From: an uncultured Clostridia bacterium
GTDB lineage: Bacteria; Bacillota; Clostridia; Christensenellales; Borkfalkiaceae
DNA length: 50,179 nt
Assembly (NCBI GenBank): GCA_944362555.1
Contig: CALVTL010000013.1
Location: forward strand, 1 to 50,179
Reading direction: 5' to 3'
Below, piece after piece: positions 28,947 to 49,695 of this stretch. Position 1 is the first letter of the stretch, and every line of letters begins with the position of its first letter. The translations under genes and the position numbers were made by a program. A model generated the notes under the pieces. It saw nothing but the letters and a program-made list of their open reading frames with translations, did not search any database and was not told the origin of the DNA.

Positions 28947-30917
<1,971 letters not shown>

Positions 30918-30919
30918 GG

Positions 30920-31134
30920 GTTCACACATTTTTCCGCGAACTGACGCGGAAAAATGTCGTGAGGGGAGGAAAAACCCAACGTTCGCCTTTGGCTCTGCGT
31001 TCGGTTTTTCCCGCCGATGGGATTTCGCAACAGTTATAGCTCCCATCGGCTCCCTTTTCCGCAGAAGCGCAGGTATGCGCAAATGTGGGGCGCGGGCGGA
31101 GGGGAACCCTCCTTGCGCAAGTATTTATAGCCCT
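30920..31134 (-). ncRNA. Structured repeat element copy E1 (candidate RNA), 3' end abutting gyrB stop
   Basis: Read on the minus strand. From 5': GCTATAAATACTTGCGCAAG, a 6-bp hairpin (31098-31103/31107-31112), a 39-nt block (31054-31092) identical to copy E2, a 10-bp hairpin with an 18-nt loop (31013-31022/31041-31050), a long AAAAACC/GGTTTTT-closed arm, and a perfect 13-bp hairpin with loop TCAGTT (30926-30938/30945-30957), then GTGTGAAC next to the gyrB stop codon. Stems differ from E2 by paired changes while loops are kept. No protein frame is shared among copies. Whether it is transcribed RNA or a DNA repeat is unknown. Confidence 0.6.
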
Positions 31135-31260
31135 CTTACTCTTGCCCTCCCTGTGTAAGGGAGGGTGCCGAGCGGAGCGAGGCGGGAGGGTTGTCAAATC
31201 CGACCATGCAGCGAAAAAGCGCGACTTTCCTTGCGGCATAATTGGTAGCGAGGGCTACTC
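31135..31260. repeat. Spacer with 8-bp GC hairpin
   Basis: Contains CCCTCCCT/AGGGAGGG (31145-31152 with 31158-31165) followed by GTGCCGAGCGGAGCGAGGCG, a motif of the kind scattered in many gut Firmicute genomes. On the minus strand, GCCGCAAGGAAAGTCGCGC (near 31217-31237) resembles the sequence before copy E3' at 46830. No gene seen. Confidence 0.5.
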
Positions 31261-31263
31261 TCC

Positions 31264-31452
31264 GTCATTCCGCCCGGCGCGAGGAGAAATGCCTGCTTGC
31301 AGGAGCATTTCGACGAAGCGGCGCACGAGCCCCAAAGGGGCGAAGTAGGGAGGGCTTGTCACCCCCCCCCGTCATTCCGCCCGGCGCGAGGAGAAATGCC
31401 TGCTTGCAGGAGCATTTCGACGAAGCGGCGCACGAGCCCCATAGGGCGAAGT
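31264..31452. repeat. Two direct copies of an 83-bp intergenic repeat
   Basis: Copies at 31264-31346 and 31371-31452 are nearly identical, with one indel. Each has an inner hairpin (AAATGC...GCATTT) and a GCCCC/GGGGC hairpin at the end. An inverted copy is at 46219-46301 and fragments at 46083-46130 and 28702-28730. Non-coding and of unknown role. Confidence 0.8.
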
Positions 31453-31518
31453 CAGCGAAGCGAGGAATCCCCTCGCAAGGGACAGGTTGTAACAAACGGG
31501 GAGATCCCTCACACGCGC

Positions 31519-45930: not shown

Positions 45931-46345
45931 GCATATTGCGGGGATGAGGGGGCGCTTGCGCCCTACGTCATCCCGAACGAATGTGAGGGATCTCCTCGCT
46001 TTTTGCACTCTGTCCCTTGCCATGGGATTCCTCGTCGCAAAAGCTCCTCGGAATGACGGAAGGGTGGGACACGTCCTCGCTGACTTCGCCCTGTTGGGGC
46101 TCGTGCGCCGCGTCGGCGGAATGCTCCTGCCCCTTACGTCATCCCGAACACGGAACGTAGTGAAGTGGAGGGATCTCCTTGCAAGCGACAGGGGGCGGGG
46201 GGATTCCTCGCTTCGCTGACTTCACCCCGTTGGGGCTCGTGCGCCGCTTCGTCGAAATGCTCCTGCAAGCAGGCATTTCTCCTTGCGTCGGGCGGAATGA
46301 CAAAGAACAGTCCTTGCTATCGATTCCGCCGCAAGCAAAACCACG
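45931..46345. repeat. Repeat-rich spacer with 83-bp repeat copies
   Basis: Holds GTCATCCCGAA...GAGGGATCTCCT motifs (about 45969-46000 and 46138-46180), a fragment of the 83-bp repeat (46083-46130) and a full inverted copy (46219-46301) of the repeats found between gyrB and gyrA. No gene is supported. Confidence 0.75.
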
Positions 46346-46600
46346 CCTTTGCGCGAGAAAATTCGTGAACTTGCTATAATTACTCGCGCAAGCAAAACCA
46401 CGCTTTTGCGCCGCGGGACTCAATTTGCCGATACTTCGGCTTACGGGGAAAAGGTGAATTGGCGCGAGCTAAAATTGTAAGCCCTGAAAATCGCGCCAAG
46501 AGGAAAAACGAGACGGAGCAGCGCTTGCGCGTGCCCCGTCGGTGTTTTTCCTCTTCTCACGGAATTTTGTCGCGCCTTTGCGCGAGAAAATTCGTGAACT
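46346..46600 (+). ncRNA. Structured repeat element: partial copy plus full copy E3
   Basis: A 3' remnant (46346-46370) shares CTTTGCGCGAGAAAATTCGTGAAC with the copy end. Full copy E3 runs from GCTATAATTACTCGCGCAAG (46373) to GTGAACT (46600): hairpin GCAAAA/TTTTGC, a conserved GATACTTCGGCTTACGGGGAAAAG block, a 9-bp hairpin (46459-46467/46491-46499, 23-nt loop), a GAGGAAAAAC/GTTTTTCCTC arm, and a 14-pair terminal hairpin with one G-G mismatch (46567-46598 region). 46409-46600 is repeated exactly at 46856-47047. Confidence 0.6.
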
Positions 46601-46820
46601 TGCTATCAATTACTCGCGCAAGCAAAATCGCATTTTGCGCCAGCGCCCCACATTTGCGCATACCTGCGCTTCTGCGGAAAAGAGAATGCGCGGGCGTTAT
46701 AAATGTTGCGAACTGCCCGCGCAGAGGAAAACCGATTGTCAGCCGCTCTGCGGCGTGCAATGGGTGTTCCTCCCCCTCACGACGTTTCTTTTCATCAGTT
46801 TGAAAAGAAACGTGTGAACC
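46601..46820 (+). ncRNA. Structured repeat element copy E2
   Basis: TTGCTATCAATTACTCGCGC start, hairpin GCAAAAT/ATTTTGC (46622-46638), the 39-nt block 46644-46682 identical to E1, a 9-bp hairpin with loop GTTATAAATGTTGCGAACT (46687-46723), a GAGGAAAACC arm, and a perfect 13-bp hairpin with loop TCAGTT (46782-46794/46801-46813), then GTGAACC. Against E1 the last hairpin has six paired base changes in 13 pairs but the same length and loop. Confidence 0.6.
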
Positions 46821-46855
46821 TCTAAAATCCCGCCGCAAGGAACGTCGCGCCGTTC

Positions 46856-47047
46856 CGCCGCGGGACTCAATTTGCCGATACTTCGGCTTACGGGGAAAAG
46901 GTGAATTGGCGCGAGCTAAAATTGTAAGCCCTGAAAATCGCGCCAAGAGGAAAAACGAGACGGAGCAGCGCTTGCGCGTGCCCCGTCGGTGTTTTTCCTC
47001 TTCTCACGGAATTTTGTCGCGCCTTTGCGCGAGAAAATTCGTGAACT
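46856..47047 (+). repeat. Exact 192-bp copy (E3') of 46409-46600, ending at the Ca2+ ATPase stop
   Basis: All 192 bases equal 46409-46600 at an offset of 447. Its last base is the first base of the ATPase stop codon on the opposite strand. Its 5' flank (GCCGCAAGGAACGTCGCGC) differs from that of E3. The identity implies recent duplication, insertion or gene conversion. Confidence 0.9.
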
Positions 47048-49695
47048 CATTTGTGATGTCTCACCAGATCGAGCTCCTTTGCGATCTCCATGACGAGGAT
47101 GGGGACGAAGGAGAGGGCGATGCCGATGACGTACACCTCCCAAGGCAGGTACGCGGCGCCGAAGCCGAACACGTTCATGACGCCCGGGGTGAAGAGCACG
47201 AAGGCGATGAGCGCGAGCGCCAGAAGGGTCACCCAGTTCAACACCTTGTTGGAGAAGGGGCCGATCTTGAAGAGGGAGTGCCCGGAGCGCATATTGTAGG
47301 CGTGCAGCGACTGCGAGAGGGCGAGCACCAGGAAGGTCGCCGCGCTGCACTGTTCTGCCGTGCAGCCGAAGGCGTAGCGCGCGATGCAGTAGCTCGAAAG
47401 GGCGAGCGCCGCGAACATACACCCCTGCAGCACGATCTGAATGCCGTAGCCGTGGGCGAAGATGCTCTCCTTTTTGGAGCGCGGCTTGTGTTCCATGACG
47501 TCGGGTTCCAGCTTCTCCATGCCCAGCGCGACGGCGGGGAGGGAATCGCCGATGAGGTTGATCCACAGAAGCTGAATGGAGATGAAGGGGGAGATCTGCC
47601 AGATGCACATGGCGAGGAAGACGACGATGACCTCGGAGATGTTCGTCCCCAGCAGGAAGCCGACCACCTTTTTGATGTTGGAGTAGATACCCCTGCCTTC
47701 CTTGACGGCGTCCACGATGGTGGCGAAGTTGTCGTCGGTGAGCGTCATGTCGGCGGCGCCCTTGGCGACGTCGGTGCCCGTGATGCCCATCGCGCAGCCG
47801 ATGTCGGCAGCCTTTAAGGCGGGCGCGTCGTTGACGCCGTCCCCCGTCATGGAGACGACCTGACCCTTCTTCTGCCATGCCTTGACGATGCGGATCTTGT
47901 TCTCGGGCGAAACGCGGGCATAGACGGAGATGTGCTCCACTTCCTTGTCCAGCTCCTCGTCGCTCATGGCGTCGAGCTGCGCGCCCGTGATGGCTTTATC
48001 GCCCTCCAGAAGGATGCCCAGCTCGCGCGCGATGGCGGAGGCGGTGACGACATGGTCGCCCGTGATCATGACGGGCTTGATGCCCGCCTTGCGGCAGACG
48101 GCGACTGCCTCTTTCGCCTCGGGGCGGGGCGGGTCGATCATGCCGACGAGCCCCAGGAAGGTGAGCCCGCATTCGAGCTCCTCGGGCGTGGGTTCGTCGG
48201 AGACGTGTTCGATGTACTTATATCCGACGGCGAGCACGCGCAGCGCGCCCGCGCTCATCTCGTCGTTCGCCGCGCGCGCCGATTCGATGTCGCCCGCGAC
48301 GCACTTCTCCGCCATCACGTCGAACGCGCCCTTGACGATGGCGACGAGCTTTCCGTCGATCTTGTTGACCGTCGTCATGAGCTTGCGGTCGGAGTCGAAG
48401 GGGATGCCCGTGATGCGGGGATACTCCTCGCCCAGCACCTCTTTGGGGCTGCCCGCCTTCATGGCGGCGTAGACGATCGCCGTCTCGGTGGGGTCGCCGA
48501 GGTGCACTTCCTTGCCGTCCTCCACTTCCACGGTGCCGTCGCAGCACAGCGTGCCCCAGTCGAGCAGCCTGCGCACCTCGGGGGAGGCAGCGGCGGCGTC
48601 GAACGTCTGCACCGCTCCGCCGTCGAGATAGGTCTTGACGAGCGTCATGCGGTTCTGCGTGAGAGTGCCCGTCTTGTCCGAACAGATGACGGACGCCGAG
48701 CCCAGCGTCTCCACGGCGGGCAGGCGCTTGATGATGGCGTTCTTTTTCACCATGCGCGTGACGCCGATGGAGAGCACGATGGTGACGACGGCGGGCAGCC
48801 CTTCGGGAATGGCGGAGACGGCGAGCGAGACTGCCGTCATAAAGATCTCCAGCCAGTCGGCATTGGGCATACACGCGCCGATGATGAAGATGACGGCGCA
48901 CGCGACGAGCGCGACGATGCCGAGATACTTTCCGAGCTGGGCGAGCTTTTGCTGCAGCGGCGTCTTGGTCTCCTTCTCGCCGGCGAGCAGGTTTGCGATC
49001 TTGCCCATCTCCGTGCTCATGCCCGTTGCGGTCACCACGGCGCGTCCCGAGCCGTACGTCACCGAGCAGCCCGAAAAGACCATGTTGTCCCTGTCGCCCA
49101 GGGGCGCGTTCTCCGCCACTTCTGCGCGGGCGTCCTTTTCGGAGGGGACGCTCTCGCCCGTCAGGGCGGATTCCTCCGACTTTAAGTTGGAGGAGGTGAG
49201 CAGGCGCGCGTCGGCGGGCACAAAGTCGCCCGCTTCCAGAATGATGATGTCGCCGGGAACGAGGTCGGCAGCCTGGATGAACTGCTCCTTGCCGTCGCGG
49301 ACGACGCGCGCGTGCGGCGCGGACATATTTTTCAGCGCTTCGAGCGCCTTTTCCGCCTTGCTCTCCTGCACCAGTCCCATGACGGCGTTGAGGATGACGA
49401 TAAAGACGATGAGGGCGGGTTCGACGAATTCGAGCGCCTCGCCCTCCTTCGTGCCGAACACTTCATAGCAGATGATGCCGAAGGACACGCACGCCGCAAT
49501 GAGCAGGATGATGATCATCACATCCTTGAACTGCTCCAAAAAGCGGATGATGAGCGGCTTTTTCTTCTTTTCCGCCAGTTTGTTGGGGCCGTGCTTTGCG
49601 CGCAGTTCTTCCACCTGCGCGGAAGTGAGCCCCTTGTCTGCATCTGTGCCGAGGGCGCTTATAACTTCGTCCTGCGGCAGATCGTGATAATGCAA
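47047..49695 (-). CDS. Calcium-transporting P2A-type ATPase (SERCA-like)
   Basis: 882 residues, TTG start with GGAGG 9 nt before it, giving MHYHDLPQDEVISALGTDA. Actuator LTGESVPSEKDA, M4 calcium site IPEGLPAVVTIVLSIG, phosphorylation site CSDKTGTLTQNRM, hinge MTGDGVNDAPALKAADIG, M5 GTNISEV and M6 NLIGDSLPAVALGME are all present. This is the arrangement of bacterial LMCA1/YloB-type pumps, which export Ca2+ from the cytosol. Ten membrane spans. In Bacillus YloB is linked to sporulation. Its stop codon is flush with repeat copy E3'. Confidence 0.92.
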   Translation of the reverse strand: MHYHDLPQDEVISALGTDADKGLTSAQVEELRAKHGPNKLAEKKKKPLIIRFLEQFKDVMIIILLIAACVSFGIICYEVFGTKEGEALEFVEPALIVFIVILNAVMGLVQESKAEKALEALKNMSAPHARVVRDGKEQFIQAADLVPGDIIILEAGDFVPADARLLTSSNLKSEESALTGESVPSEKDARAEVAENAPLGDRDNMVFSGCSVTYGSGRAVVTATGMSTEMGKIANLLAGEKETKTPLQQKLAQLGKYLGIVALVACAVIFIIGACMPNADWLEIFMTAVSLAVSAIPEGLPAVVTIVLSIGVTRMVKKNAIIKRLPAVETLGSASVICSDKTGTLTQNRMTLVKTYLDGGAVQTFDAAAASPEVRRLLDWGTLCCDGTVEVEDGKEVHLGDPTETAIVYAAMKAGSPKEVLGEEYPRITGIPFDSDRKLMTTVNKIDGKLVAIVKGAFDVMAEKCVAGDIESARAANDEMSAGALRVLAVGYKYIEHVSDEPTPEELECGLTFLGLVGMIDPPRPEAKEAVAVCRKAGIKPVMITGDHVVTASAIARELGILLEGDKAITGAQLDAMSDEELDKEVEHISVYARVSPENKIRIVKAWQKKGQVVSMTGDGVNDAPALKAADIGCAMGITGTDVAKGAADMTLTDDNFATIVDAVKEGRGIYSNIKKVVGFLLGTNISEVIVVFLAMCIWQISPFISIQLLWINLIGDSLPAVALGMEKLEPDVMEHKPRSKKESIFAHGYGIQIVLQGCMFAALALSSYCIARYAFGCTAEQCSAATFLVLALSQSLHAYNMRSGHSLFKIGPFSNKVLNWVTLLALALIAFVLFTPGVMNVFGFGAAYLPWEVYVIGIALSFVPILVMEIAKELDLVRHHK

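Follow-up and report, generated by a model that had tools for sequence, protein, structure and literature searches.

The window (the whole stretch of DNA analysed, 50,179 nt, from an uncultured Clostridia bacterium of the Borkfalkiaceae; GCA_944362555.1, contig CALVTL010000013.1) contains a folded intergenic element in four near-complete copies and a fifth that is internally deleted. Three near-complete copies, E3 (46371-46599), E2 (46600-46819) and E3' (46820-47046), lie on the + strand, E3 head to tail with E2, and the terminal GTGAAC of E3' directly adjoins (gap 0) the TGA stop codon (47047-47049, - strand) of a P-type ATPase gene. The fourth, E1 (30920-31131), lies on the - strand with its 3' end 2 nt from the stop codon of gyrB (30915-30917, + strand). 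The covariance model R1, built from 59 copies (alignment A1), matched E3 at 46371-46601 (175.4 bits), E2 at 46600-46821 (200.1 bits), E3' at 46822-47048 (160.4 bits) and E1 at 30918-31133 (217.3 bits); E3' is 96% identical to E3 over 214 nt. All four were found where the initial annotation had placed them, with slightly corrected ends. What it had taken for a 3' remnant is really an internally deleted copy (46313-46370, + strand), recognised by direct repeats, in which the 5' start and half of hairpin P2 are fused to the 3' arm of the terminal hairpin P6. Its observation of a multicopy folded element is confirmed, and the extent is larger than it stated. The same intergenic regions (window positions 45940-46310 and 31130-31480) are also occupied by other repeat families, CGTCATTCCGCCC...GGCGCACGAGCCCC and TTGCCCTCCCT...AGGGAGGG, the latter of which frequently lies next to the element at its 5' end.

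The element is typically about 220 nt long (range about 120-235 nt) and consists, from 5' to 3', of an AT-rich leader, the P1/P2 hairpin with a CGCAAG junction, ATTTGC followed by P3, CTT and GGAAAGG, the stem P4 with its loop, the arm P5, and TCACG, P6 and CGTGAAC. On the + strand of E2 the fold places P1/P2 with the CGCAAG junction, which is kept across genera, at 46615-46645, the ATTTGC-P3-CTT..GGAAAAG block, likewise conserved across genera, at 46650-46684, the middle stem and loop of P4 at 46688-46723 (supported also by arm pairing over 59 copies), the long arm of P5 with its inner hairpin at 46724-46772, and P6, an inverted repeat with a single bulge on the 5' side, at 46777-46817, ending in GTGAAC. 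This module order is common to the copies that were read from the three genera considered here, the genus Candidatus Gallimonas and two further ones (g202 and g18); the copies read are mostly 226-236 nt long in g202, with some of about 200 nt, and 185-196 nt long in g18. The shortest variant (118 nt, locus L155) retains only P1/P2, P3 and P6, and no gene was recognised within the element. Among 99 folded copies, P6 carries 92 single-base bulges of the 5' side, mostly G, preceded by four to six foot positions. Of the 188 well-filled columns in the alignment of 99 copies, 44 reach at least 90% identity, and 25 of these 44 are unpaired in the stored structure, which omits P4; the mean conservation of unpaired columns (0.70) does not exceed that of paired ones (0.73). 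Two peculiarities of P6 were also seen: one subtype (L117, L061, L079, L113) has by eye a tandem G-A mismatch in an otherwise perfect stem, and in a copy at L154 (1501-1746) the P6 loop seems to contain another repeat as an insertion.

In Candidatus Gallimonas, a genus which we take to belong to the Borkfalkiaceae, model searches of the kind that the initial annotation had proposed for this genome and related Clostridia detected the element in 55 of 61 genomes. In a family sample they detected it in 6 of 18 genera (76 of 201 genomes), and in a sample of the class, 3 of 291 genomes were positive, all within the family and one of them the genome of the window itself. In that genome (60 contigs), blastn with E2 returned 24 matches and blastn with E3 returned 32, partial ones counted, and R1 gave at least 38 (38 of 38 candidates scored). 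Element-bearing genomes often hold more than 10 copies each, and such per-genome counts are lower bounds, since a capped number of candidates was scored per genome; the large searches used stricter filters. An exact core pattern returned 43 stretches among named genomes, all from Candidatus Gallimonas or uncultured Clostridia metagenome assemblies, and near-identical copies occur elsewhere (97% to E2 over 169 nt at C1, 97% to E3 over 152 nt at C7). One exact pattern gave no match in viral contigs, and blastn gave none in phages and plasmids. Head-to-tail arrays occur, and the copy junction at window positions 46800-46828 yields a -35/-10 pair (TTGAAA, 17 nt, TAAAAT), as the junction of a circle would.

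For E2, E3 and E1, none of 200 dinucleotide shuffles folds as well as the native sequence (z -6.66, -5.40 and -6.72, respectively). As had been noticed beforehand, the terminal stems, of 13 pairs each, differ between E1 and E2 by six compensated changes and share a TCAGTT loop (counted by hand), and the middle stems of the copies are unrelated in their letters, yet pair. This covariation persisted once many copies were aligned, beyond both shuffled and slid controls. Alignment A1, comprising 59 of 73 full copies from the genus (14 were removed by hand, including E3' and several divergent ones), shows compensated changes at 28 of 37 predicted pairs. Alignment A3 comprises 99 matches with E up to 1e-18 from three genera and 78 hand-chosen sources, E3 being absent and the g202 and g18 copies being top-scoring picks from the list of the family search; here 34 of 37 modelled pairs are changed on both sides, 97.4% of cells pair (73.6% after shuffling, 41 to 54% with partners slid), and 855 cells have both sides changed vs 235 in shuffles. 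These counts are of sequences rather than events, from related copies and, for A3, from an alignment fitted to the model; kinship and cassette exchange inflate them, and a DNA fold would give the same signal. P4, which the aligner misplaces, was tested separately: the 59 copies have 26 distinct left arms, and the arms pair at 8.49 of 9 positions vs 3.99 when permuted (maximum of 1000 permutations, 4.81). A candidate pseudoknot between the ATTT before P3 and the P4 loop was rejected, pairing no better than in permuted copies (3.66 vs 3.71 without G-U pairs, 3.98 vs 4.14 with them).

Covariation alone is no proof of an RNA, since a fold at the level of DNA fits the near-absence of G-U pairs from P6, the equal folding of both strands and the replacement of hairpins equally well. 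Over 99 copies only 12 of 1679 P6 pairs are G-U, compared with 138 of 1619 in 160 terminator-like hairpins chosen by a simple rule from the same loci, and these figures fit hairpins that were swapped whole or corrected as DNA. With each strand in its own best fold, the share of G-U in the genus is 3.2% in P1/P2, 3.0% in P3, 2.5% in P4, 6.0% in P5 and 0.1% in P6 on the + strand, and 10.7, 13.6, 6.6, 3.6 and 0.2%, respectively, on the - strand. Folding energy does not distinguish the strands (lower for + in 41 of 81). Together with the replacement of whole hairpins, the P6 pairs and the equal strands would suit a palindrome of the DNA level, the hairpins of which are kept perfect by templated quasi-palindrome correction or by recognition as a cruciform or single-stranded DNA, with no role as RNA. 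We regard this as distinctly unlikely: P5 retains G-U pairs on the + strand, the motifs and a box in the leader are conserved, and a palindrome alone leaves unexplained why the helices keep a fixed order and why there is a bulge of one base.

The box in question is a -10-like hexamer upstream of P1. Among the 83 of 99 copies whose leader could be anchored, 20 of 43, 15 of 24 and 9 of 16 in the three genera have it, vs 3.1, 4.0 and 2.7, respectively, expected from shuffled leaders; the shuffles preserve base content only. The hexamer stands most often at offset 12 or 13 in two of the genera and at offset 9 in the remaining one, and judging from these leaders the element is perhaps transcribed from its own -10 box. 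The first description had offered a structured RNA or a structured mobile repeat. The mobile repeat stands, on many copies, patchy orthologous sites and mosaics, and for the structured RNA the evidence points both ways: motifs kept across genera, many of them unpaired, and the -10-like box in all three genera would speak for it, while a P6 nearly devoid of G-U, two strands that fold equally and hairpins replaced as a whole would speak against RNA as the sole reading, as would the conservation of unpaired columns, which is not above that of paired ones.

The mosaics became apparent from pairwise identities in A1, where the identity of P2 between copies is uncorrelated with that of P4, P5 and P6 (0.02, 0.01 and 0.04), whereas the identities of P4, P5 and P6 are moderately linked to one another (0.34 to 0.56). 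Of the 100 pairs of copies that share at least 95% identity in P2, 77 fall below 65% in P4. On these alignments, hairpins appear to be exchanged as cassettes and copies to be mosaic.

Occupancy of orthologous sites is patchy, the element being present at some and absent at others. At 30 gyrB loci, an antisense copy of at least 100 bits follows the gene in seven (L172-L176, L179, L180), a partial antisense copy of 42 bits in L178 and a weak match of 23 bits in L192, the copies in L176 and L192 being placed by coordinates only; in L182 the copy faces gyrA instead. The remaining loci are without the element there, some having gyrB-gyrA gaps of 10 nt (L184) to 42 nt (L171) and some holding other repeats. 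L173, the gyrB of which is 93.5% identical to that of the window over 615 nt, bears a different copy at this place. In sister species (L194, L196, L197, L198, L200) a different short repeat, CTTGCCCACCC...GGGTGGG, stands some 10-31 nt past the stop codon of gyrB. For the ATPase gene 19 loci could be aligned, and the element is found in the genome of the window, in G004 and partly in G371; at the other 16 loci its place is taken, as judged by eye, by a hairpin and a T-rich stretch, L203 having a model match of 10.7 bits there. Unoccupied sites align with occupied ones in the genes only, matches in the flanks being confounded by the other repeats there; since orthologous flanks cannot be aligned beyond the genes, neither a target duplication nor the exact ends can be read from them.

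The position of the copies against genes follows a one-sided rule. Neighbouring genes were taken as reading frames of at least 120 codons, and in 112 of 145 non-redundant matches the 3' end was intact and the flank long enough. Of these 112, 61 end no more than 10 nt from the stop codon of a gene on the opposite strand, in every case at -1 to 8 nt. The same holds for 2.5% of positions drawn anywhere and for 4.3% of 4000 positions drawn between reading frames (66 loci). Some other copies end by eye just before a ribosome-binding site. Among 52 complete copies of the genus with both ends and enough flank, the 3' end lies at such a stop codon in 28, within 35 nt of the ATG of a long frame in 15 and at either boundary in 38, compared with 12.5% of random intergenic positions, and the 5' end lies at the mirrored boundaries in 2. 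In g202 the stop codon and ATG boundaries are reached by the 3' end in 10 and 11 of 24 copies (by the 5' end in 1 and 0), and in g18 by the 3' end in 5 and 1 of 16 (by the 5' end in 0 and 1); by these counts the rule is weaker there.

A 3' end placed tightly against stop codons or just before start codons could also be the mark of a host regulatory RNA, i.e. a 3' or 5' untranslated element at gene ends that would shape termination, stability or translation of the adjacent mRNA, its spread being incidental. The motifs conserved across three genera and the -10-like leader agree with such a role, as does the ATPase gene, where the usual terminator-like hairpin is not seen beside the stop codon when the element is present. 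However, the antisense neighbours (40 of 60 listed) are by eye unrelated core genes, those recognised including gyrB, guaA, hslU, hslV, secA, era, ftsY and argS, copies are antisense to the adjacent gene in some cases and sense in others, sister species lack the element at the same gene, and P5, considered as an intrinsic terminator, was rejected after the terminator scan did not flag it. We therefore hold a host regulatory RNA to be unlikely.

No enzyme that could mobilise the element was found among the three sought, as neither Y1 transposase, reverse transcriptase nor TnpB tracks it. Y1 transposase was detected neither in the genome of the window nor in 9 of 18 element-bearing genomes in all, which are incomplete, four of those without it being at least 93% complete (G051, G376, G540, G464). 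Read by eye, five Y1 genes or gene fragments resemble ordinary IS200 and carry no element ends, and at nine Y1 loci R1 matched twice, once with 23 bits at a distance of about 470 nt (L130) and once with 7 bits. The absence from half of the element-bearing genomes and the ordinary IS200 look weaken Y1 transposase as a mobiliser. A SINE-like retroelement copied by reverse transcriptase would suit the fixed 3' end and the leader box, and mosaics could arise by template switching. Reverse transcriptase (PF00078) was found with one match in the genome of the window, which is one of only two positives among nine element-bearing genomes, and in none of six element-free ones, these genomes being incomplete; it was not found in G018, G043, G051 and G075, each with at least 38 element matches (38 of 38 candidates scored). 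A retroelement of this kind is hence highly improbable. Scarcely credible, and already disfavoured, is a guide RNA of the omega-RNA type the 3' end of which reads into the adjacent gene. An RNA-like fold with its 3' end against a gene would be in keeping with it, but TnpB (PF07282) exceeded the cut-off in none of 21 genomes, 18 of them element-bearing, with one match below it, and no HEARO was among the Rfam matches up to E 10.

From the observed copy number, fold, independent hairpin identity between copies, patchy orthologous sites and fixed orientation of the 3' end to gene boundaries, we lean towards the reading that the element is a family-wide, non-autonomous mobile structured repeat of the BOX/REPIN/MITE kind that is maintained as a folded single strand. 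Copies would probably be transcribed from the leader, and a protein acting in trans would recognise the folded strand, P6 above all; the 3' end of the element would determine where a copy settles, and exchange between copies at the hairpin boundaries would give rise to the mosaics. There are points against the mobile repeat: no transposition was observed, no autonomous copy with genes of its own was noticed, and motifs inside the element are kept across genera, which pure selfishness would not require. A bolder version, which we put forward tentatively and consider rather doubtful, is a new class of folded selfish replicator with its own promoter, in which the six-helix RNA or single-stranded DNA, and not the sequence ends, would be the substrate of a putative family-wide machinery that recombines hairpin cassettes and places 3' ends against translated regions.

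BOX is not known to have a mobilising enzyme, and the spread of such small structured repeats without a known enzyme is an old open question. With many genomes, three genera of distinct size classes, patchy sites and a sharp positional rule, both the mechanism of insertion and the choice between RNA and single-stranded DNA become testable by comparison in the present element. It also calls for caution, as strong covariation among genomic copies need not imply a host RNA.

Scanned against Rfam 15 at curated thresholds, the window yielded only three tRNAs, with the element unmatched, and at E up to 10 three weak matches (best IRE_I, E 0.73) were taken as chance, as was a match to YenS on the strand opposite to E1 (E 0.0011, 24.9 bits vs a threshold of 80). 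A literature search, with most subscription journals outside its reach, found no publication pointing to the element, and as far as this search and Rfam reach, its earlier designation as undescribed is supported. The bcr1 repeats of the Bacillus cereus group are interspersed and have a proposed RNA fold; they differ from the element in host group and architecture. MITEs, as defined in the accessible part of PMC3049150, resemble it in being short, non-coding in appearance, multicopy and strongly folded. They differ from the element in that its copies share no terminal inverted repeat: none joins the ends of E2, and E3 alone has a 12-nt subterminal inverted repeat (92%); nor was a target duplication seen, the flanks being unalignable beyond genes.

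The nearest in kind are the BOX and REPIN elements. In the accessible part of PMC3049150, the BOX elements of Streptococcus pneumoniae are small, folded, interspersed and modular, counted as boxA, boxB and boxC over 67-637 bp, and 36 are reported at the extreme 3' end of genes. By this description the element is set apart from BOX in its host, in having six helices whose order is fixed and which compensated changes preserve across genera, and in that one of its ends is fixed against genes. REP and REPIN sequences with their RAYT transposases share with the element a bulged hairpin beside a short conserved flank and many intergenic copies (PMC8266576, as far as its text was available). The same portion of that source describes REPs of 20-50 nt, mostly with GTAG, whereas the element has about 220 nt, six helices and a GTGAAC end, and half of the tested element-bearing genomes are without a Y1 transposase; no GTAG-type tetranucleotide was found beside a 20-50 nt palindrome, and no cognate Y1 transposase in the genome of the window. 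Its length, the helices kept across genera, the exchange of cassettes and the one-sided rule at gene boundaries make the element a new variant among such repeats.
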